Shown here: positions 19,779 to 40,037 of the stretch, in pieces
Layout of the letters: each line of letters begins with the position of its first letter
Position numbering within the stretch: the first letter of the stretch is position 1
Source: Candidatus Hydrogenedentota bacterium
Lineage (GTDB): Bacteria; Hydrogenedentota; Hydrogenedentia; Hydrogenedentales; CAIZGN01
Direction: 5' to 3'
Length of the DNA: 49,548 nucleotides
Assembly (NCBI GenBank): GCA_903932505.1
Contig: CAIZGN010000689.1
Span: 1 to 49,548 of the forward strand
Notes under the pieces: model-generated
Seen by the model: only the letters and a program-made list of their open reading frames with translations
Database searches by the model: none
Told to the model about the DNA's origin: nothing
Translations under genes and position numbers: made by a program

Positions 19779-19866
19779 CTCGCCAAGCCTCCGGGGCGGG
19801 GCATGGTTCTGCATTGGCGGGAGTTGACGAAGGGCATCGAACAACTGGACAAGCGGGAGGACGGCA

Positions 19867-22488
19867 ATGAAGGAATGGACACCTGAGGCACGGCAGCGGC
19901 TGGACAACTATCTTGATGAACTGAAGCGATGGGCCGAGGCTTCAGGACAGGATGGGGCTGAGATCACGGAGGGGATCCGGTCGCACGTGGAGGCGGAACT
20001 CAACGAGGCACCGGGCGAACCCGTCACCGAGGAAATGCTGCAAAGGAAACTCGCCGCGCTTGGGGCTGCGCAGGAGATTATCGCGCCGGACATGAAACCA
20101 GCGGACGCTTCGGGCGACAGTGCCTGGAAGCGAAGCAGCAAGGGCCAAATTCTAGGTCTTGTCCGCATTTTTCCCTTGTTGACGCTATGCACCGCCATAT
20201 TTGCCATTCTCTTTGAGTTCGTGGTTGGCATCATGTCGGAATTGTACATTGATCCGATGCCGGACTTGGGTCACTTGGCAGGGCTTATTCTCATTGTGGT
20301 CGGGCTGGGCCTGGGGGATGATTTTCGAAAAAAAGAGGCAGACCGCATCGGCGACTGGTTCAAATCATGGGTCTACATTCTGAACGGCTTTGCCGTCGTG
20401 TTGTCCTTCCTCTACTTCCTGGTATATGTGCCCGTTCTTCCCTTGGCGGCGATCTGCTGCCTTGTCTTGCTTGGATTCATGGGCTTTGCACCCCTGATGT
20501 GCTTCATGTTGAGCGTGGTGCAACTCAGTCAGCTCTGGGATCGATGCGGCGAACTGGGCGTGACCCGTGCCTGGGCGCTTAAGCGAATGGCTCTCGGGGT
20601 CGTGCTGGTGGGGGCGCTGGTCGGTCCCTCGCATATTCGCTCCGCAGTCACGGAATGGGCCGTCCGAAAAGCGCTGTCAGACAATGTGCAGGCGCAGATA
20701 CAGGGGCAGTGGTGGCTGAAGCGCCTTGGCAATGTCGAGAGCTTGGTACATAGCGCCTCGGGCCGCTTCCCCGGCATGGATTTCGATGGGGATGCGAATA
20801 TGTCGCGCTGGTCGCTGTATTACAAGATCACCGGAAAATCGCCAAGATTAGCATCGACACAGTCGGTCAGCCCCCTCTGGCGGAGTCCCCTCCATCTGAT
20901 CGATGTCCATGCGCAACGCGCGGTTGACCCCTGTTTGCTTTCCAGCACAATGGATGGCGCGGTGGATACCGGGACTGCAACCGCTTATCTGGAATGGACC
21001 CTCGAGTTTCGCAATGAGCAGGAGTGGGATCAATCCGTGCTGGGGCACATTCGTCTTCCCTATGGTGCGGTGGGCAGCCGACTGACATTGTGGGTGAATG
21101 GAGAACCCTGCGAAGCGGCTTATGGCACGCGCAATCAGGCGGTGCAAGCCTACCGCGATGTGGCGATCTCGCAGCGCCGTGATCCTGCCCTGCTGACAGT
21201 ATCGGGTTCGAATTCGGTCGCGCTTGAGTGTTTCCCCGTACCCTCCCATGGAACCCTGAAAGTGAAGGTGGGATTCACCATTCCGCTGGAATTGTGCGAT
21301 TCCAGCGCGGTGCTTACCCTGCCCTTTTTCGAGGGTCGGACCTTCGATCGGCCCGATTCAGTGTGCCGTTCCATCTGGATAGAAAGTCGCGCTCCGATGG
21401 AGACCGGAATCCCCGGTATCGAAGTCGAGACGCGGGCGGATGGCCGGACGGTATTGCAGGGCAAGGTTCCCGAAATCCAATTCGAACAGCCCGGTACGGC
21501 CATAATACGCATCCCTCAAGCTATCGCGGTTCCCGCGAGTGCCGATTCTGCGCTGTCCGAGACCCGCGCCACGGTTCACCTCGATGCCGGGCAAGCGGTC
21601 ACACCGGCACTGTGCCTGATCATTGATGGTTCAGTTGGTATGGCGGAGGCCATGGCGAAGATGGACTGGAATGCTCTAATCGAGGCACTGCCAACTGGAA
21701 GCCAGATTCGCGCGATACAAACGGGCCCACTTCCGCGTGTTTGGAAGGAGGAATTCGCACCGCCATCGCCCGAGCTGGTAGCCTGGCTGAAAGGGCTCAC
21801 CTACGAAGGCGGGCAGGACCCGGCACCGGCCTTGGAGAAAGCGTGGGAATGGGCTGCGGGACAAGCCAATGGCGCAATTCTTTGGGTCCACGACGCATTA
21901 CCGATCGAACTTTCGAGTGTAGAGGGGCTCCAGCAGCGCATGCGCCGTCAGCCGCAATCGGCCAACGGCGCGCCGATAGTTTTGTATGCACTGGGATATA
22001 CGAGCGAAAACAACGTGGTGATGGAGAAGCTGGACACGGCACCCATGATACGTCCCTTGCCAATATTGTCCGATGCCAAAGAGACGAGCAGTCATGCCGT
22101 GCGGCAAATTGCTGGGGCGCTACCCCGGGCCCGCTATGAACTCTTGCCCAATGGCCCGGCGGATGGCCCCGCCTCCCCTGACAAGGGGCACGGCGCACGG
22201 CTGGCGGTCGCAGAGCGGGTGCGGCTGATGGCGTGGCAGGGCACGCCCCAAGAAAAAGCGGAAGCCACCAAGCTGGCCATGTCGAACCGCCTGGTGACGC
22301 CACTGAGCGGTGCGGTGGTACTCCAAACGGCGCAGCAGTACAAAGACCACAACCTGAATCCGTCCAACGACCTCGATGCGGTACCCATCGTACCCGAGCC
22401 AGAGGAATGGGCACTCATCGCCGTGGCTTTCCTTGCCGCCACGGTGGCTTGGTCGCGACACCGGAAACTGGGTCGCGCGAAAACATGA
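19867..22488 (+). CDS. Multi-domain membrane protein: N-terminal HAAS-like domain, TM helices, VIT domain, VWA-like domain, C-terminal PEP-CTERM-type sorting tail
   Basis: HAAS-like LDNYLDELKRWAEASGQDGAEITEGIRSHVEAEL; VIT-like YLEWTLEFRNEQEWDQSVLGHIRLPYGAVGSRLTLWVNGEP; VWA-like ALCLIIDGSVGMAEAM; C-terminus VPEPEEWALIAVAFLAATVAWSRHRKLGR. Confidence 0.75.
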   Translation: MKEWTPEARQRLDNYLDELKRWAEASGQDGAEITEGIRSHVEAELNEAPGEPVTEEMLQRKLAALGAAQEIIAPDMKPADASGDSAWKRSSKGQILGLVRIFPLLTLCTAIFAILFEFVVGIMSELYIDPMPDLGHLAGLILIVVGLGLGDDFRKKEADRIGDWFKSWVYILNGFAVVLSFLYFLVYVPVLPLAAICCLVLLGFMGFAPLMCFMLSVVQLSQLWDRCGELGVTRAWALKRMALGVVLVGALVGPSHIRSAVTEWAVRKALSDNVQAQIQGQWWLKRLGNVESLVHSASGRFPGMDFDGDANMSRWSLYYKITGKSPRLASTQSVSPLWRSPLHLIDVHAQRAVDPCLLSSTMDGAVDTGTATAYLEWTLEFRNEQEWDQSVLGHIRLPYGAVGSRLTLWVNGEPCEAAYGTRNQAVQAYRDVAISQRRDPALLTVSGSNSVALECFPVPSHGTLKVKVGFTIPLELCDSSAVLTLPFFEGRTFDRPDSVCRSIWIESRAPMETGIPGIEVETRADGRTVLQGKVPEIQFEQPGTAIIRIPQAIAVPASADSALSETRATVHLDAGQAVTPALCLIIDGSVGMAEAMAKMDWNALIEALPTGSQIRAIQTGPLPRVWKEEFAPPSPELVAWLKGLTYEGGQDPAPALEKAWEWAAGQANGAILWVHDALPIELSSVEGLQQRMRRQPQSANGAPIVLYALGYTSENNVVMEKLDTAPMIRPLPILSDAKETSSHAVRQIAGALPRARYELLPNGPADGPASPDKGHGARLAVAERVRLMAWQGTPQEKAEATKLAMSNRLVTPLSGAVVLQTAQQYKDHNLNPSNDLDAVPIVPEPEEWALIAVAFLAATVAWSRHRKLGRAKT

Positions 22489-23894
22489 GTCCGAAATCCG
22501 CAGCCGGACACCGGGCGAACGGCACCACTCCTTTGTTCTACATCGGTGCCGGATTGGCGGGCGGGTGGGCAGCGGAAGGGTGGTTGCTCCAGCGTTGGGT
22601 CTCCGGGCAACCCTGGATTCCGGTGGTGGTACTCGGGGTGTGGGCCGTGCAGCGCTGCACCCGGGTTCCGGTGGCACGGGAGCGGTGTGATGTGGCCTTC
22701 AGTTGGCTTGTCGCGTCGACCGGGCTTCTGACCGCCTACGCCCTGCTTTGCCATACCCTTCCCCGACTCCTCTCCACGGGCTTGCTGACCACCAGTCTGG
22801 CCTGCATTGCATTAGCCGTCACGCCGCAGCCCTCTCGCTCGTGGTCCTGGCTGCCGCTGGCCATTGTGATCCTGCCGCTCGGGCCACCACTGGATTTTTT
22901 CTGCGCGTATCCCTTGCGCCGGGTCAGCGGTGTCCTCGCCGAGGGCATGCTGTGGGGGCAGGCGCAGCTCGATGGTCTCGCGCTTTCCGATGGCACCCGC
23001 CAAGTCCTGCTCGATGCGCCGTGCAGCGGCATCCACATGCTGGGTGTGGGGCTGCTGCTGGCCACTTTGCTCGCCGGATACACGGAACTCACCTTGTGGC
23101 GCACAGGCCTGCTGCTTGTCCTCACCCTGATGGCTATCGTTCTCGGAAACGCTCTGCGTGCGGCCTCGCTGTTCTTGGTGGAGACCCGATTCCCGCTGGG
23201 CGAACTCTTTCATAGCGGTGTGGGCTTGATAATCTTTCTGGCGGTGTCACTCGCGATGATGGCATTCGCCTGGCGACTTCGCGTAGTTCCAGGCGCGGCC
23301 CCGGACAAGCCGGAACGAGTCGCGGGTTACCTTTGTCGCGCGTTCTTTTTTCTATCCGCAGTGGCCGCCGCTGCATCGCCCCTTTTGGCGGAATCCAAAG
23401 CGCATAGGGGCGCTCCCCCGGAACTCGCTGGTATTGTCTGGCCGAAAACGTGGGAGGGAGCGCCCCTGGTCGCAGCGCCTATTCCACCAGAATGGGCGGG
23501 AGCCGAAAACTTGTTTGGAGGGCGCATGGCCCAGTTCCGGTGCGGCGAGGCCATGGTTCTACTGCGGCTCACCCCGGAGGTTTCCCGAGCCTTGCACGAA
23601 TCGCGCCGGTGCTACGAAGCCTTCGGCTGGCACTGCGCCACCCTGCCGGGCTGGCGCGACCCGCAGGGGCGGCTGTGGAGCAGTTTTTCCGCAACGCATC
23701 CCGACGGCCGCAAACGCGTTGTCCGGGAATGCTTCATGCGCGTGTCTGCACCCGTTTTGCCCGCCGCGCTGGAAGATCTACCTGCCAGGGGACACACCTG
23801 GCCCGATGCCTCCAGCTGGTACTGGGCATCGGCAATACCCGGCACAGAACCAGCATTAAACCTGGCAATTACCCGCGTAGCACCGCAAGGATAG
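22485..23894 (+). CDS. Exosortase-family cysteine transpeptidase/protease-like membrane protein with C-terminal extension
   Basis: Exosortase signature residues: Cys in DAPCSGIHMLGVGLL, Arg in LGNALRAASLF, His in ELFHSGVGLIIF, in a multi-TM context; ATGA overlap with the PEP-CTERM gene. Confidence 0.85.
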   Translation: MSPKSAAGHRANGTTPLFYIGAGLAGGWAAEGWLLQRWVSGQPWIPVVVLGVWAVQRCTRVPVARERCDVAFSWLVASTGLLTAYALLCHTLPRLLSTGLLTTSLACIALAVTPQPSRSWSWLPLAIVILPLGPPLDFFCAYPLRRVSGVLAEGMLWGQAQLDGLALSDGTRQVLLDAPCSGIHMLGVGLLLATLLAGYTELTLWRTGLLLVLTLMAIVLGNALRAASLFLVETRFPLGELFHSGVGLIIFLAVSLAMMAFAWRLRVVPGAAPDKPERVAGYLCRAFFFLSAVAAAASPLLAESKAHRGAPPELAGIVWPKTWEGAPLVAAPIPPEWAGAENLFGGRMAQFRCGEAMVLLRLTPEVSRALHESRRCYEAFGWHCATLPGWRDPQGRLWSSFSATHPDGRKRVVRECFMRVSAPVLPAALEDLPARGHTWPDASSWYWASAIPGTEPALNLAITRVAPQG

Positions 23895-25820: not shown

Positions 25821-26432
25821 TCAGGTTTCATCACGCACGGGAATCACGGGGTGCGAGCGCACCCAGCCGGTGCGGCTATAGGGATAGTAGATGCACCGGA
25901 CTTTGCCGACGATTTCCGACACAGGGACGGTGGTGCCGTCGATGTGACTGTCATCGCTGTCGTTGCGGTTGTCACCGAGGAAAAAAATATGCCCCTCGGG
26001 CACGACCACTTCGGGTACGATGGCGTATTTCATGGGCTCGGCAATGTAGGGTTCAGACACATAGCCCCCGTTGATGAACAACGCTCCGCCCCCAACGCCG
26101 ACGTGATCTCCGGCGAGACCCACTATCCGCTTCACGATATGCGCCCCTTTTTCCTTGGGGTCGTGCAACACCACGATGTCGCCGCGCTCGTAGGTTCTCT
26201 GGGACAGGGTCACCAGTTGGTCGCCCACAAGAAGGTTTGGTTCCATGGAGCGGGAAGGAACAAGAAAAAAGCTCATGCCGCGCACGACAAAGAGGTAGAA
26301 CAGCACCCATACGGCTACCAGCACAATGAGTTCACCGGCCCTACGTCCAAAGAAAAGGCGTCGCAAGTGGCTTGGTTCAGCGACAGGTGCCGGGGAGGGC
26401 GGTACTTCCATAATAGGGTCGGGCTGGGACAT
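25821..26432 (-). CDS. lepB: Signal peptidase I (start 26432 or 26483)
   Basis: VPSRSMEPNLLVGDQLV catalytic Ser motif, RGDIVVLHDPKEKGAHIVKRIVGLAGD Lys box, FFLGDNRNDSDDS. Confidence 0.92.
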   Translation of the reverse strand: MSQPDPIMEVPPSPAPVAEPSHLRRLFFGRRAGELIVLVAVWVLFYLFVVRGMSFFLVPSRSMEPNLLVGDQLVTLSQRTYERGDIVVLHDPKEKGAHIVKRIVGLAGDHVGVGGGALFINGGYVSEPYIAEPMKYAIVPEVVVPEGHIFFLGDNRNDSDDSHIDGTTVPVSEIVGKVRCIYYPYSRTGWVRSHPVIPVRDET

Positions 26433-26442
26433 CAGGGACTTT

Positions 26443-27393
26443 CTATGGCTGGGCTTTTTCGCGTGGTTTTGTTTTCGAGCCACGCTCCGATTTTATATCC
26501 GCCAACAGCGCCTTGGCGGGATCGCTGTTCGGAATTATTTTCAAGGCTTCGTTCACGCATTTCTCGGCCTTGGCGAGATTTTTTCCGCGAACCCATGCGC
26601 GGCCTTCGTTTAGCCACGAGAAGAAGCACTGATCCTCTCTTTGCGCGTTCTTGCGGGCCTTCTGCCAGGCCTTTGCGGCATCCGCCCACTTGACGGGTAC
26701 GCCAAAGTCTTCAGCGGCGAGGAAATTGACTGCGTAATCACAGGTGAGCTCATAGTCCTTGGGCTGGAGTTTGGCGGCCAGACGGGAGTATTCCATAGCC
26801 TTGAGATAGATTTGCTCCCGATTCCATTTTTTGTAGGTGGCGAGCTGCGGGAAATTGACGAGATACACCTGAACCGCGTTGAAGAGGTAGTTCGGATTCT
26901 TGGGTTCCAGTGCCAGTGATTCGTCCAGATGCTGGAATCCCTTTTCGTATTCGCCGTTGTGGCAATAGTGCATGGCGAGGTTGTTGTGTGCGGCACCGCA
27001 CGTGGAGTCTTTGGTGAGGGCCAGTTCCCAGCTTCGCAGGCCACCTTCCGCATCGCCCGCATAGTCATACAGGATTTCACCGTAGGGAACCAGGATGCGG
27101 GGATTCTCCGGGTATTTTTCCATCGCTCGCTCGAAGCTCTGCTTTAGGATATCGGTGTGTTTCTTGATGAGCGCGACTTGGTCGTCAACGATGGACTGGT
27201 TTCCGGCAACCCTTGCCGCATCCATCTTGTCTTGGGCCTCGTTGATGGTCTGACGTTCGCGCTCGTAACAGGCGAGCAGGGCCGCCTGAAATTTCGGCTC
27301 GTTTTCAGCCAGCGCCTGTATTTCCCGTGTTTCCACGGGCCACTCGCCCGGCGCGGCGGACAAGGCGCTTATAAAGAGAATCAACCCAACCAT
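26443..27393 (-). CDS. Exported TPR-repeat protein
   Basis: Signal-like N-terminus MVGLILFISALSAAPG; TPR pattern CGAAHNNLAMHYCHNGEYEKGFQHLDESLALEPKNPNY. Confidence 0.7.
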   Translation of the reverse strand: MVGLILFISALSAAPGEWPVETREIQALAENEPKFQAALLACYERERQTINEAQDKMDAARVAGNQSIVDDQVALIKKHTDILKQSFERAMEKYPENPRILVPYGEILYDYAGDAEGGLRSWELALTKDSTCGAAHNNLAMHYCHNGEYEKGFQHLDESLALEPKNPNYLFNAVQVYLVNFPQLATYKKWNREQIYLKAMEYSRLAAKLQPKDYELTCDYAVNFLAAEDFGVPVKWADAAKAWQKARKNAQREDQCFFSWLNEGRAWVRGKNLAKAEKCVNEALKIIPNSDPAKALLADIKSERGSKTKPREKAQP

Positions 27394-33400: not shown

Positions 33401-33566
33401 AGACATGGTGTAAGAGATTTTAGAAGCAGCGAAGGGAAGAGAACGAAATATCGGGCCGTGGGACCAAGTCGCCTGCGGTTTGTCTGCGTATCCCCTTGGG
33501 AGAAGGGGAGCGGTCTGTCTTCCGGACGCTTTGTGTGTTTATTCCAATTATCGGGAAGGACGAGCC

Positions 33567-36500
33567 ATGCTAGCCATCCGATGCCCCCATTTTTTTGTGC
33601 GCACCCGTCGAACGGGAATTGTTCTGGCCGCCGTCACCGTGGCCTTGGTCGCCACGTCCGCGCTGGCCGTGGACTTCGAGTTCGGTGCTGGGCGTGACGG
33701 TTCCTACACCGTCAGCGGCACTAAAACCGTTCAGGAGGTCTGGGCGGAGCTCGCCGCGAGCGCCTCGATGACCTATGACCCCCTGAATGCCTACCAAGTG
33801 CCCAATTTTGAGAATCTCATCATCGATGAAAACTCTTCGTTGACTGCCGAGTCTTTTTCGGGTGACCCAAGTGCGGCCGTGGACTCGCAGGACGGCGGCA
33901 TTTTGCGCTTGCGGGTGAACGGTACTTTATGGATTAAACCGGGGGGACGTATTGACGTATCCGGACGCGGGTATCACGGGGGAATTGCGGGTGCCGTTGC
34001 AGACCAAAAGGGTGTGCAAGGGGACTCTTGGGGGATGGTGGGAGCCAATGATCGCGTAGAAAACCGGGGTGGTGGTGGCGGTGGTTTGCCCGATCCCACG
34101 GTGGGTGGTGGTGGTGGCGGCGGCAATGCGACCGCAGGCACGGGCGGTGGCGGTGGACGAACGGGCTTGGCGGGTTTATCTTTTGATACGGTGGCGCAAT
34201 CACAGGATCCCTCGTTCCGAGGGAATTATCCGTTTCCGCGTTTTGGCTCGGGCGGTGGCGGAGGCGGTTTCGTGCTGCTGAACGCCAATGCGGCGGCGGT
34301 CGGCGGTTCGGGTGGTGGCGTCATCGTCATTGAGGCGGCACACATCATCAATCAGGGCACGATGTCGGCGGAAGGTTCTGGCGGCGGCACGGGGATTTCT
34401 GGCGGCGGTGGTGGTGGTGGTGGCGGCGTCTGGATACGCACCCTTTCCTCCGAGACCCGTCAGTCGGGTACGGTGACCGTCAAAGGCGGGTCGGGCGGCG
34501 TCAGCAACCCCCCCGTGGGCGAGGAAGGTTTTAACGGCGGGACGGGCGGCTTGGGCGAAAAACGATGGGAGACCCAGTACGAAGTCGCTCCCACGGTTGA
34601 AGGCAACGGTCGCGTGGTGGTCACGCCGGTGGCGAATCAGTTCATCCCCGGCACATTGGTGACGTTGGAGGCCAAGCCGGATGATGGGTGGTGTTTCAAG
34701 GAGTGGACGGTCGGCGCATCGGGCGTGAGCCGGGTGGTGGCTGTGTCGTTGACGGACAACCTGTATCCGAACGCGATTTTTGAGGTGGATCCCGGTCTTC
34801 GTGTGCTTCCCATCGACGAGCAGACGGTGCGTTGCGAAGGCGGTACGGTCTATCTGCAGGTCACGGGCAGTAAGTGCGAACCCACCAGCTGGACCGCCAT
34901 TGTTCAGGAAGGTGTGACCTTCATTACCTTGGCGGCCGGTGGCACGGGCACGATCTCCTATCCCACATCATCAACCATATCGTTGGTCTTGCCGGCCAAC
35001 CAGACCGGCCTCGTGCGCACGGGTAGCATTCTGGTAACGGACACCGATCCCCTGCACGATGTCTCGTATACCATTCCGATTCGCCAGTTGAACTGCCGAC
35101 CGGTTCTGGATGTGCGTCCCACCGACGATCTCGTTCCCTCCGCTGGTGGTGTCCGCTCCTATGGCATCACGAACAAGGGCGAAGGTCTCATGGCATGGAA
35201 CGCGGTCATCACCAGCGGTGCCAATTTTATGACCTTGGGCAATACCAACGGAACCGGGAACGGGGCACTTTCTGTGACCGTTTCTCAGAATCTGACCGCT
35301 GGGCCGCGTGTGGGTACCATCGAAGTTCAAGCGCCGGACGGTGGCGACAGCAGCCCGAAGATTATTACGATTACCCAGGCCAACAACACCCCTGTGCTGG
35401 ATGTGCGACCCACAACGGACTATGTGACCTCGGCGGGCGGGCCGCGCTATTTTTCCATCACCAACAAGGGTGAAGGCACGATGACCTGGAACGCGGTCGT
35501 CACCAGCGGTGCGAACTTTCTCACCTTGGGTACGACCAATGGCACCGGCAATGCCACGCTGGCAGTGACCGTGCTGCCGAACCAGACCTCCGGCCCGCGC
35601 GTGGGTACCATTGAAGTCCAAGCCCCCGACGGCGGGGTGAGCAGCCCGAAGATTATTACCATCAACCAAGCCAACAACACGCCCATTCTGGATGTGATGC
35701 CCACAGAGGACTCGGTGTCTTCCACCGGCGGGAGCCGGGCCTACACGATCGCGAACAAGGGCGATGGCGTGATGGCGTGGAATGCGGTCATCACCAGTGG
35801 CGCGAATTTCCTCACCTTGGGGAACACCAACGGCACAGGGAACGCGACGCTATCGGTGACGGTCGGACCGAACCTGGGTTCGGCACCGAGAACCGGAACG
35901 ATCGAGGTGCGCGCCCCCGATGGCGGGGTGAGCAGCCCAAAAACCATCACGATCACCCAAGCGAACAGCAGCCCGGTTCTGGACGTGCGACCGCTGGAGG
36001 ACTTGGTCTCCTGTCTGGGTGGCGCGCGATATTTCACCATTACGAACCGGGGTGAAGGTGTGATGGCGTGGAACGCGGTGATTCTTGACGGCGCGAATTT
36101 CATGACGCTGGCCACCACGAATGGAACTGGAAACGCCTCGTTGTCGGTAACACTGGCACCAAACCTGACCGCATCCACACGGACGGGCACCATTGAAGTG
36201 CAGGCCCCGGATGGCGGCGTGAGCAGCCCCAAGACCATCACCATCACCCAAGACAAGAACAGTCCGGTGCTGGATGTGGGACTCACGGAAGACTATGTGT
36301 CCTCGCTGGGCGGTTCCCGCACCTATACCATCAGCAACAAGGGACAGGGCGTGATGGACTGGAATGCGGCCGTGATCAGCGGTGCCAATTTCATCACCTT
36401 GAACAACTCGAACGGCACGGGTGCCGGTGCCCTGTCCGTGACCATTGGCCCCAATTTGACCTCCTCGCCACGAACAGGCTCCATCGAGGTTCGTGCGCCG

Positions 36501-39500
36501 GGCGCAGGGGTGAGCACGCCCAAAACGATCACCATCACGCAGGCGAACAGCACACCCGCGCTGGATGTGCGTCCGGTGGATGATTTCGTGCCCTGCGCGG
36601 GCGCGTCCCGTTCGTACACCATCACAAACAAGGGCGAGGGCAACATGCCATGGAGCGCGGTGATTACCGCAGGATCCAATTTCTTAACGCTGGGTGCGGT
36701 GAGCGGCACTGGCACCGGGGCACTCCCTGTGACCATTGCGCCAAATTTGACGTCGCTGCCCCGGGTGGGAACGATTGAAATCCAGGCCCCCGATGCCGTG
36801 GACAGCAGTCCCAAAGTCATCACCATCACCCAGGCGAAGAACAGCCCGATTCTGTATGTGACGCCCACCGAAGATCTCGCCTTGCCCTGTCTGGGCGGTG
36901 TGCGTTACTACACGCTCATAAACAAGGGCGAAGGCGTGATGGCGTGGAACGCCATTGTCACCAGTGGTTCTGGCTTCCTTACCGTGGGAACATCGAGTGG
37001 CGTTGGTGCGGCCTCCTTGAGCGTCACGGTGGCGGCGAACGCGACCTCGGCGGACAGAACCGGAACCATTGAAGTTCGCTGTCCGGACGGTGGGGCGAGC
37101 TCACCACAGGTGATTACCATTACGCAGTCGAAAATTACCCCGATCCTTTCCCTCGCACTCACCGAGGACACCATTTCATCCACCGGAGGTTCTCGCAGCT
37201 ACTCCATCACCAATCTGGGTGAATGCACCATGCCGTGGTCGGCGGAAGTGACCACGGGAGACAATTTCCTCACGCTGGCGAACACCAGTGGAACCGGTGC
37301 CGGCGCCTTGTCAGTGACCATTGCCCCCAATCTGGACTCGTCGCCGAGAATCGGCACGATTACGGTGACCGCGCCCGATGGCGGTGTCAGCAGTCCGCAG
37401 ACCATTACCATCACACAGAACAACAGCCGTCCGGTGCTGGATCTGCGGCCGCTGGAGGACTTTGTGCCGTGCGCGGGCGGTGCGCGCTCCTTCACCATCA
37501 CGAACAAGGGTGAGGGCGCGATGCCTTGGAATGTGGTGGTGACCACGGGCGGCGGTTTCCTCACGCTGGGCGCGAGCAGCGGCACCGGCAGTGGCACACT
37601 GTCCGTGACGGTGGCCCCGAATCTCACCTCCTCGGCCCGCACAGGCACGGTCGAAGTGCAGGCACCGGATGGCGGGGCCAGCAGTCCGCAAACCATCACC
37701 ATCACCCAGGCGAAGAACAGCCCCTCGCTCGACGTCAGCCCGCAGGACGACTTTGTCCCCTGCCTCGGTGGCGCGCGCAGCTACACCATCGCCAACAAGG
37801 GAGAAGGGGTCATGGCTTGGAACGCGGTGGTGACCAGTGGCGGAGGATTCCTCGCCTTGGGTGCGAGCAGCGGCACTGGCCCTGCAGCTCTCTCCGTGAC
37901 TGTGGCCCCCAACCCGACCTCCAATTCCCGCAGTGGCACCATCGAGGTGCGCTGTCCGGACGCCGGGGCGAGTTCCCCCAAGATCATCACTATTTCACAG
38001 GCCAAGATTGCGCCGTTGCTCGACTTGGGCCTCACGGAAGACACCGTGTCCTCGGCGGGCGGCACGCGGAGTTACACCATCACGAATATCGGCGAGTGCG
38101 CGATGCCGTGGGCCGCTGAAATCACCAGCGGCGCGAATTTCCTGTCGCTGGCGAATTCCAGCGGCAATGGGAGCGGCACCTTGTCCGTGACCATCGGCCA
38201 GAATCTGGATACGACACCTCGCATCGGCACCATTGAGGTTACCGCACCGGATGCGGGGGTGAGCAGTCCGAAAACGATTACCATCACGCAGACGAACGCA
38301 CGACCGGTGCTGGATGTGCGCCCGGTGGACGACTTGGTGCCCTGCGCGGGTGGTGCGCGTTCCTACACCATCACCAACCGAGGCGAAGGTGCGATGGCGT
38401 GGAACGCCGTTGTGACAGACGGCCCGGGCTTCCTGACCCTGCCGACGAACAGCGGTAGCGGCACCGCTACCCTGTCGGTGACGGTGGCCCCGAATCTCAC
38501 ATCCTCCGCACGCACCGGCACGATTGAGGTGCAGGCACCGGACGGCGGGGTGAGCAGCCCGAAGACCATCACCATCACCCAGGCGAAGAACAGCCCCGTG
38601 CTGGATGTTACGCCCCTCGAGGACTTTGTGCCCTGCCTGGGCGCGACGCATTCCTTCACCATAGCGAACAAGGGTGAAGGGGCCATGCCGTGGAACGCCG
38701 TCGTGACCAGTGGCGGCGGTTTCCTCACGCTGGGTGCCAGCAGCGGTTCCGGGCCGGGTACGCTCTCGGTGACCGTCGCCGAAAACAAGACGCCGGATGA
38801 CCGGGTGGGCACGGTGGAAATCCAGGCCCCTGACGCCGGCGTCAGCAGCCCCAAGATCATTACCATTACACAGAGCAAGGTGAGTCCCGTGCTGGACGTT
38901 TCGCCCGAAGGCGAGGTTTTTGTGTCCTGCGACGAGGCCCCGGTGACGTTGAATATTACGAACAAGGGCGAGGGCAGTATGACGTGGTCCGCGATTGTGA
39001 CTGGCGGCGCAGACGACTTTCTGGCCTTGCCGGTGAGCAGCGGAATTGGTGCGGCGGCACTTTCCGTGACCGTGAAGCAGAACCGGAGTTCCGGTGAACG
39101 TACCGGCACGATTGAAATCACCGCGCCCGATGCGGTGGGCAGTAGCCCGAAGGTGATCACGATACGTCAGGGATTCATCGAACCCATCCTGAGTGTCGCA
39201 CCGGTGGAACAGCGCATTGGCGGTGCGGGTGGCACGGTGCCGTTCACCGTGGGCTTGGGCGGGGCTCGGTGCACACCGTGGCGGGCCATGCTGCTTAGCG
39301 GGATGCAATACAACATGACGGTTGCACCGGTGGAAGGTCCTATCAAAGGCGCGGGCGATGCCTCGGTTACGGTGACCGCCCCGGCGAATGACCGACCCGA
39401 AGAACGGCGGGCGGAGATGAAGATCATGGTGCAACCCGACGATCTGGCCTTGCCGCTGGAGGAACAGACCGTGGTGATTTATCAGGATCCGTGTCTGGGA

Positions 39501-40037
39501 CCACCGCCACCCACTAATGTCACCGCGAGCGATGGGAAATATGTGAACGGCGTGAAGCTCTTGTGGACGCCCTCGCAGGGTGCGACCCAATACCAAATCT
39601 TCCGCAGTGAGGCCAGCAACTTCAAGGATGCCTTGCTGATCGCGACTACGGCTACGCCTACGTACGTTGATACAACCGCGTTGTATCCCGATGTCGAAAT
39701 CGTCGGGCGTTCGTGCTTCCAGGCGGGCGAGTATCTGGCCAATTATCGCGTCTATTACTATTGGGTGCGCGCGCTGAACAGTTGCGCGGGCAGTGAGCCG
39801 AGCGACCCCAATACGGGGTATCGCGACATGATTCGCCGTATTGCCCCACAATACACGCCGGTGAAAAGTAACACCGACGGGTCCGGCACCACTGTATCCA
39901 ACACCACCGCTACTCCCCAAGCCGCCACCGCGATGCCGGTGGATGCACGTGGAATTTTGGGTGACAACGCCGTCGCCTTGCTGACATTGCTCATGTTGAG
40001 TCTGGGGGCGTTGTGGAAAGGGCAAAAAAGTCTGTAG
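33567..40037 (+). CDS. Giant secreted surface protein (~2156 aa): Gly-rich N-terminal region, bacterial-repeat-type domain, 14+ tandem BACON-like domains, FN3-like domain, C-terminal hydrophobic tail
   Basis: Signal peptide RRTGIVLAAVTVALVATSALA; repeats LDVRPxxDxVxxxGGxRxYxIxNKGEGxMxWNAVVTSGxxFLTLGxxxGTGxxxLSVTVAPNLTSxxRTGTIEVQAPDGGVSSPKTITITQ; C-terminus GDNAVALLTLLMLSLGALWKGQKSL. Confidence 0.85.
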   Translation: MLAIRCPHFFVRTRRTGIVLAAVTVALVATSALAVDFEFGAGRDGSYTVSGTKTVQEVWAELAASASMTYDPLNAYQVPNFENLIIDENSSLTAESFSGDPSAAVDSQDGGILRLRVNGTLWIKPGGRIDVSGRGYHGGIAGAVADQKGVQGDSWGMVGANDRVENRGGGGGGLPDPTVGGGGGGGNATAGTGGGGGRTGLAGLSFDTVAQSQDPSFRGNYPFPRFGSGGGGGGFVLLNANAAAVGGSGGGVIVIEAAHIINQGTMSAEGSGGGTGISGGGGGGGGGVWIRTLSSETRQSGTVTVKGGSGGVSNPPVGEEGFNGGTGGLGEKRWETQYEVAPTVEGNGRVVVTPVANQFIPGTLVTLEAKPDDGWCFKEWTVGASGVSRVVAVSLTDNLYPNAIFEVDPGLRVLPIDEQTVRCEGGTVYLQVTGSKCEPTSWTAIVQEGVTFITLAAGGTGTISYPTSSTISLVLPANQTGLVRTGSILVTDTDPLHDVSYTIPIRQLNCRPVLDVRPTDDLVPSAGGVRSYGITNKGEGLMAWNAVITSGANFMTLGNTNGTGNGALSVTVSQNLTAGPRVGTIEVQAPDGGDSSPKIITITQANNTPVLDVRPTTDYVTSAGGPRYFSITNKGEGTMTWNAVVTSGANFLTLGTTNGTGNATLAVTVLPNQTSGPRVGTIEVQAPDGGVSSPKIITINQANNTPILDVMPTEDSVSSTGGSRAYTIANKGDGVMAWNAVITSGANFLTLGNTNGTGNATLSVTVGPNLGSAPRTGTIEVRAPDGGVSSPKTITITQANSSPVLDVRPLEDLVSCLGGARYFTITNRGEGVMAWNAVILDGANFMTLATTNGTGNASLSVTLAPNLTASTRTGTIEVQAPDGGVSSPKTITITQDKNSPVLDVGLTEDYVSSLGGSRTYTISNKGQGVMDWNAAVISGANFITLNNSNGTGAGALSVTIGPNLTSSPRTGSIEVRAPGAGVSTPKTITITQANSTPALDVRPVDDFVPCAGASRSYTITNKGEGNMPWSAVITAGSNFLTLGAVSGTGTGALPVTIAPNLTSLPRVGTIEIQAPDAVDSSPKVITITQAKNSPILYVTPTEDLALPCLGGVRYYTLINKGEGVMAWNAIVTSGSGFLTVGTSSGVGAASLSVTVAANATSADRTGTIEVRCPDGGASSPQVITITQSKITPILSLALTEDTISSTGGSRSYSITNLGECTMPWSAEVTTGDNFLTLANTSGTGAGALSVTIAPNLDSSPRIGTITVTAPDGGVSSPQTITITQNNSRPVLDLRPLEDFVPCAGGARSFTITNKGEGAMPWNVVVTTGGGFLTLGASSGTGSGTLSVTVAPNLTSSARTGTVEVQAPDGGASSPQTITITQAKNSPSLDVSPQDDFVPCLGGARSYTIANKGEGVMAWNAVVTSGGGFLALGASSGTGPAALSVTVAPNPTSNSRSGTIEVRCPDAGASSPKIITISQAKIAPLLDLGLTEDTVSSAGGTRSYTITNIGECAMPWAAEITSGANFLSLANSSGNGSGTLSVTIGQNLDTTPRIGTIEVTAPDAGVSSPKTITITQTNARPVLDVRPVDDLVPCAGGARSYTITNRGEGAMAWNAVVTDGPGFLTLPTNSGSGTATLSVTVAPNLTSSARTGTIEVQAPDGGVSSPKTITITQAKNSPVLDVTPLEDFVPCLGATHSFTIANKGEGAMPWNAVVTSGGGFLTLGASSGSGPGTLSVTVAENKTPDDRVGTVEIQAPDAGVSSPKIITITQSKVSPVLDVSPEGEVFVSCDEAPVTLNITNKGEGSMTWSAIVTGGADDFLALPVSSGIGAAALSVTVKQNRSSGERTGTIEITAPDAVGSSPKVITIRQGFIEPILSVAPVEQRIGGAGGTVPFTVGLGGARCTPWRAMLLSGMQYNMTVAPVEGPIKGAGDASVTVTAPANDRPEERRAEMKIMVQPDDLALPLEEQTVVIYQDPCLGPPPPTNVTASDGKYVNGVKLLWTPSQGATQYQIFRSEASNFKDALLIATTATPTYVDTTALYPDVEIVGRSCFQAGEYLANYRVYYYWVRALNSCAGSEPSDPNTGYRDMIRRIAPQYTPVKSNTDGSGTTVSNTTATPQAATAMPVDARGILGDNAVALLTLLMLSLGALWKGQKSL
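34060..34560 (+). repeat. Poly-glycine-coding low-complexity tracts (GGT/GGC-rich)
   Basis: Encodes GGGGGGLPDPTVGGGGGGGNATAGTGGGGGRTG, GSGGGGGGFVLL and SGGGGGGGGGVWI. Confidence 0.85.
35100..39182 (+). repeat. Tandem coding repeat, 14 units of ~291 bp (97 aa)
   Basis: Unit boundaries at the P of xPVLDV: 35100, 35391 ... 38886, 39183; one extra codon in unit 7 and two in unit 14. Confidence 0.92.

Follow-up and report, generated by a model that had tools for sequence, protein, structure and literature searches.

Dedicated sorting systems, in which a sorting enzyme has a single target per genome that is encoded nearby, were defined by Haft and Varghese (2011; PMC3237569), where VIT/VWA proteins with LPXTG, GlyGly-CTERM, or PEP-CTERM tails were also noted, and dedicated sorting around VIT/VWA proteins is already a known kind of arrangement. 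The HAAS–PadR dyad, described separately, is two-component-like, with the PadR gene adjoining that of the HAAS protein; exosortases are not mentioned in that study (Ravi et al., 2024; PMC11237479). Exosortases act mostly on secreted proteins without an assigned use. Here we analyze two overlapping genes in a 49,548-nucleotide stretch of DNA (the window; contig CAIZGN010000689.1) from a Candidatus Hydrogenedentota bacterium, encoding an 873-amino-acid VIT/VWA membrane protein and an exosortase. They probably form a dedicated system of one enzyme and one substrate, in which the anchored ectodomain would serve as a PadR-linked sensor in most relatives, with probably only the sorting half retained in the window.

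Conservation of the gene pair

Draft metagenome assemblies make up most or all of the analyzed genomes. The pair is found in 13 of them: ten out of 68 surveyed Hydrogenedentota genomes, one metagenome-assembled genome labeled Omnitrophota by NCBI (L006), and two Acidobacteriota (L008/L103 and L102). L060 and L061 are close relatives within this sample, and the system of G037 is spread over two contigs. The exosortase and VIT genes stand side by side in a fixed order in all 13 genomes, and both proteins share about 25–41% sequence identity; the recurrence of both proteins and of their order argues against chance association. Searches with P0001 and with the VIT portion of P0002 retrieve the same ten of the 68 phylum genomes, always as adjacent genes and with no orphan of either. 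Plasmid searches with both proteins gave no match. For the exosortase profile, E-values in the phylum fall from 1e-29 (pair members) to 1e-14 (next matches). Weak exosortase matches also occur, most in open reading frames of about 350–450 amino acids; those of four genomes were inspected and judged to belong to a different class. Weak PF09721 matches forming a third class (E-values 1e-6 to 1e-8) are seen at L161:6007-7194, L163:5433-6551, and L162:3890-6880. In G033, 38 residues of an exosortase C-terminus, SWPDLSSWYWAVALPGSAVGRTLAVTVEE, persist behind unrelated upstream sequence (L164:6736-6849, G033:C3), apparently the scar of a lost system.

The Pro-Glu-Pro of the substrate tail is present in 13/13 pairs, and in 12/12 genomes the tail profile gives a single strong match (E-value 5.5e-27 or better; next best 0.055), that is, a single target encoded next to its enzyme. 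The preliminary description of the locus had proposed one enzyme for one substrate and had named a tail not conserved in orthologues as an objection; the tail is kept and unique per genome, and the reading as a dedicated pair is supported. The other objection foreseen there, a generic PEP-CTERM exosortase standing by chance beside a VIT gene, agrees with the Pro-Glu-Pro motif and with the presence of other PEP-CTERM proteins in the genome, but is most improbable. The window's genome encodes two further exosortases (C511 and C530) and nine ordinary PEP-CTERM matches with a differing tail (VPEPASLALLGLG..., e.g., VPEPASLALLGLGLAG), hence, the pair enzyme is not the generic one; in G006 and G015, moreover, the pair exosortase is the sole exosortase and PEP-CTERM matches are absent, and adjacency holds throughout. 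In a maximum-likelihood tree, constructed without C-terminal fragments, the 13 pair exosortases fall on one side of a branch (100/99) separating them from 30 generic exosortases. Its main clades recur in the VIT tree, where Hydrogenedentota G015 again groups with Acidobacteriota, indicating that the two genes travel together.

Membership of the enzyme in the exosortase superfamily is clear (PF09721, 57.8 bits, gathering cut-off 25.7; TIGR04178, 36.4 bits, cut-off 23). The Cys/Arg/His triad recognized earlier corresponds to Cys180 and Arg225, both invariant among pair exosortases, and His243, replaced in G049 only (by Asp; L059:8255-9697), where Cys and Arg are retained. The extra C-terminal domain (residues about 310–469), probably periplasmic, is encoded by a separate gene in L008, L102, G015, and the Cre-linked loci described below. 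No Pfam family is assigned to it, and its match to the XrtT C-terminus is weak; a fold search with the exosortase model yielded nothing at E-value ≤ 0.001. We presume it to be comparable to EpsI-type partner proteins.

The presumed substrate and its signaling neighbors

The VIT domain is identified by PF08487 at 27.4 bits (gathering cut-off 26.5); the VIT profile had no match among PDB sequences. The VWA part has no Pfam call, while the AlphaFold2 (AF2) model of the protein resembles inter-alpha-inhibitor heavy chain 1, which combines VIT and VWA, over approximately 600 columns (Foldseek E-value 1.8e-15), in agreement with the VIT- and VWA-like regions suggested initially. The predicted local distance difference test (pLDDT) averages 59.8 for the whole protein and reaches 70–84 across much of the VIT–VWA region. 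The metal site looks degenerate: Asp587 and Ser589 are invariant in the alignment, and an invariant His675 occupies the place of the third ligand, which in VWA domains is expected to be Asp.

Both hydropathy and the model place five helices before the ectodomain. The mean number of Lys and Arg residues is 2.4 in the N-terminal flank, 0.2, 3.3, 0.0, and 3.2 in the four loops, and 4.1 in the tail, a pattern that suggests a cytoplasmic HAAS domain, VIT–VWA outside, and a cytoplasmic basic tail; the predicted topology is thus five transmembrane helices with the N-terminus in, the ectodomain out, and the tail in. The tail has the PEP-CTERM architecture in the sequence and the alignment, with Pro-Glu-Pro (VPEPEEW) followed by a hydrophobic helix and a basic cluster. 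That the substrate has several transmembrane helices stands as described earlier; its being unusual in this respect does not fully hold, since the substrate family of XrtK (MSEP-CTERM) is also multi-transmembrane.

PadR genes lie upstream in 10 of the 11 HAAS-bearing pair systems, the window being the exception. In nine loci PadR directly precedes the VIT gene, usually overlapping it; in G037 it lies beside the N-terminal half of the VIT gene, on another contig. Intact PadR in relatives matches PF03551 (E-value 2e-18). Beyond the pair systems, 10/10 HAAS genes inspected in the phylum also have PadR directly upstream. The GxP motif of HAAS is kept in 9/9 other HAAS rows of the alignment and is replaced by GAA in the window. 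Between the end of an alpha-L-fucosidase-like gene (19778) and the pair, the window retains a PadR C-terminal stub, which we aligned in all six frames with the PadR C-termini of L060, L061, L062, L058, and L059: its scores are 41–58, none of 1000 shuffles scored as high, and the other five frames are at background. Elsewhere in the window's genome, the only PadR candidate was a remote match (30% identity, E-value 0.007), which was rejected. The stub and the GAA together indicate that both halves of the dyad have decayed here, and the signaling half is probably dead in this genome, while most pair systems, judged from their gene content, are HAAS–PadR dyads whose sensor is a predicted exosortase substrate. 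The regulatory character ascribed to the HAAS-like N-terminus would apply to the relatives; the window's own copy has lost the dyad. Downstream of the exosortase, G037 (L063:561-2792) and G034 (L057:6295-7281) encode another HAAS protein, which is pseudopilin-like and carries DGHxEY repeats.

The two Acidobacteriota pairs (L102 and L008/L103) have neither HAAS nor PadR. Shortly downstream of one of them (L103:11213-12653), open reading frames resembling, by eye, an extracytoplasmic function (ECF)-type sigma factor and a zinc-finger anti-sigma factor are seen. In three further Acidobacteriota (G112, G137, and G099), the gene of a related exosortase comes after that of a protein in which Pfam recognizes both VIT and VWA and whose tail reads TPEPETW; this protein scores 402–407 bits against TIGR03788, the dedicated-sortase target (cut-off 552). 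Upstream of these sister systems lie genes for the CreC kinase (574 bits, cut-off 356; L153) and the CreB regulator (314 bits, cut-off 273; L152). The Cre-linked loci (L153:3462-8380, L152:3058-8695, and L154:6944-11861) each comprise a PEP-tailed VIT/VWA protein, an exosortase, and a separate gene for the C-terminal domain, and resemble the dedicated sortase system with an exosortase in place of the sortase. As their exosortases nest inside the pair clade, all 16 exosortases of the clade adjoin a VIT/VWA protein, and signaling genes recur beside them. Other weak VIT matches in Acidobacteriota were set aside as members; the one analyzed by family search, L115, is a VIT/VWA protein of TIGR03788 type that lacks a neighboring exosortase.

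Coordinates of the pair and associated features in the window.
Feature	Position	Strand	Basis
PadR C-terminal stub (RGMVLHWRELTKGIEQLDKREDGNEGMDT and stop), remnant of the regulator gene preceding the pair in relatives	about 19797..19886	+	Alignment to PadR C-termini of relatives
HAAS-5TM-VIT-VWA-PEP-CTERM (TM, transmembrane helix) envelope protein, 873 amino acids, presumed sole substrate	19867..22488	+	Open reading frame, profiles, model
HAAS-like domain (residues 1-75), modeled as three helices, GAA replacing GxP	19867..20091	+	Pfam, AF2 model, alignment
Five predicted membrane helices, residues 93-253, N-terminus in	20143..20625	+	Hydropathy; positive-inside rule (Lys+Arg per loop)
VIT domain, residues 355-507	20929..21387	+	PF08487, 27.4 bits; ITIH1 fold match
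VWA-like domain, residues 581-731, degenerate metal ion-dependent adhesion site (MIDAS; invariant D587, S589, H675)	21607..22059	+	Alignment, model, Foldseek
Sorting tail PIVPEPEEW, hydrophobic helix, RHRKLGR; C-terminal	22384..22485	+	P-E-P in all alignment rows and L102
ATGA overlap, start of exosortase gene and stop of VIT gene, as first described	22485..22488	+	Sequence
Exosortase, 469 amino acids	22485..23894	+	Open reading frame
Exosortase core, residues 1-270	22485..23294	+	PF09721, TIGR04178, conservation
Catalytic Cys180	23022-23024	+	Alignment conservation
Catalytic Arg225	23157-23159	+	Alignment conservation
Catalytic His243	23211-23213	+	Alignment conservation
C-terminal domain fused to exosortase (R361, LHxxxxCY, C416, WPDxSxWYW)	23412..23894	+	Alignment; weak match to XrtT C-terminus

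Elsewhere in the window, shortly downstream of the pair, a signal peptidase S26 gene (25821-26483) has genes for a glycosyltransferase, a TPR protein, and a DegT aminotransferase around it, with no link to the pair shown, and an open reading frame encoding 2185 amino acids spans 33480-40037.

Proposed mechanism

The VIT/VWA protein would span the inner membrane with its five helices, keep HAAS on the cytoplasmic side, expose the VIT–VWA ectodomain, and end in an anchor helix at the C-terminus. The neighboring exosortase would attack near Pro-Glu-Pro via Cys180, assisted by Arg225 and His243; the anchor would be removed and the new C-terminus joined to a membrane or envelope acceptor, by analogy with lipid anchoring by archaeosortase A, the model for exosortase-family chemistry (PMC7157517). 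The extra C-terminal domain of the enzyme may help to hold the substrate or the acceptor. The ectodomain would then be fixed at both ends, by the N-terminal helices and by the covalently attached C-terminus. In most relatives, gene linkage suggests that the cytoplasmic HAAS holds the adjacent PadR, so that the anchored ectodomain would control transcription as an envelope sensor. Where the window comes from, with PadR cut to a stub and GxP gone, probably only the sorting or structural half works. More tentatively, and with less than even confidence, the exosortase-anchored ectodomain might control the HAAS-bound PadR in such a way that transcription reports on correct C-terminal sorting or on strain in the envelope.

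The HAAS–PadR linkage in relatives and CreB/CreC beside the sister exosortases would also suit a protease switch, in which the sensor is not anchored but is released or reshaped when its tail is cut, freeing PadR as in regulated proteolysis. We regard such a switch as unlikely: the N-terminal helices would hold the ectodomain in the membrane after cleavage, both HAAS and PadR are missing from the Acidobacteriota pairs L102/L103, and the window kept the enzyme and the tail despite the loss of PadR.

Several observations weigh against a dedicated sorting system linked to PadR. The HAAS match of the window protein is below the Pfam gathering cut-off (19.2 vs. 27; 22.6–23.6 in some orthologues), though the assignment, also made in the preliminary description, is supported by homology to ten other HAAS proteins, each with PadR upstream. 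The tail has no match to PF07589 in Pfam (the L062 tail scores 11.3, cut-off 20.7), and confidence in the structure models is low to moderate, with pLDDT near 60. The Asp in place of the catalytic His in G049 may reflect loss of activity or a variant chemistry, and activity may not persist everywhere. Finally, the truncation of PadR could be an assembly join, given draft metagenome-assembled genomes, though the frame and the place of the stub are right.

The pair with its linked regulator would provide a small testable system, with one substrate, one active-site Cys, and, in the relatives, one regulator readout. CreB/CreC at the same place in the sister systems suggest that VIT/VWA proteins with dedicated transpeptidases might be general envelope sensors, and a common envelope-sensing role is suggested for VIT/VWA-centered dedicated sorting systems whether the enzyme is a sortase, an exosortase, or a rhombosortase.

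Comparison with known systems

Apart from the superfamily signature, neither pair protein exceeds the cut-off of any named NCBIfam family, consistent with the initial suggestion of a new or poorly described variant. The XrtN/TIGR04477 system has the same gene logic, one exosortase adjoining one large VIT protein; TIGR04477 is the best profile for the VIT protein (E-values 1e-31 to 1e-42). Its scores, however, are 108–144 bits (107.7 in the window) with a cut-off of 250, i.e., 43–58% of the latter, and the exosortases score 30–61 (36.3 in the window) against 200 for XrtN (TIGR04476). XrtK/MSEP-CTERM likewise has a VIT-related multi-transmembrane substrate, whose profile matches the transmembrane region of the pair protein, but TIGR04286 gives 33–57 bits (36.3 in the window; cut-off 150) and TIGR04287 14 (14.2 in the window; cut-off 55), the motif is PEP, not MSEP, and the pair exosortase is much longer than the 163-position XrtK model. 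A divergent member of one of these two named systems is accordingly a weak candidate: the exosortase is nearer to XrtQ/XrtT than to XrtN, the tail reads PEPEEW, and HAAS and PadR are additional.

XrtQ and XrtT are the nearest named exosortases, the former for the core and the latter over the core and the C-terminal domain. By profile score they are distant: 60–166 bits for XrtQ (NF012182, cut-off 270; 70 in the window, 166 in the best relative), with 0/396 Acidobacteriota genomes above this cut-off, and 46–73 for XrtT (NF033770, cut-off 250; 46.3 in the window). No prior description of a multi-transmembrane HAAS-fused substrate, the PadR link, this exosortase clade, or a sorting–signaling tie was found in a search thin on subscription papers; exosortase and PadR were mentioned together only in a haloarchaeal genome description, once each.

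The dedicated Gram-negative sortase system includes a histidine kinase and a regulator. Like the pair, this system (TIGR03784/85/87/88) has one sorting enzyme and one VIT/VWA target encoded by adjacent genes; unlike it, the pair uses an exosortase, a multi-transmembrane substrate, and HAAS–PadR instead of the kinase and regulator. With the HAAS–PadR dyad (Ravi et al., 2024; PMC11237479), the pair systems share HAAS on a multi-transmembrane sensor, a standalone adjacent PadR, and GxP, but here the sensor is a presumed exosortase substrate, and the window copy lacks PadR and GxP. New, as far as gene content and profiles indicate, are the multi-transmembrane HAAS-fused substrate, its link to PadR, and the exosortase clade.

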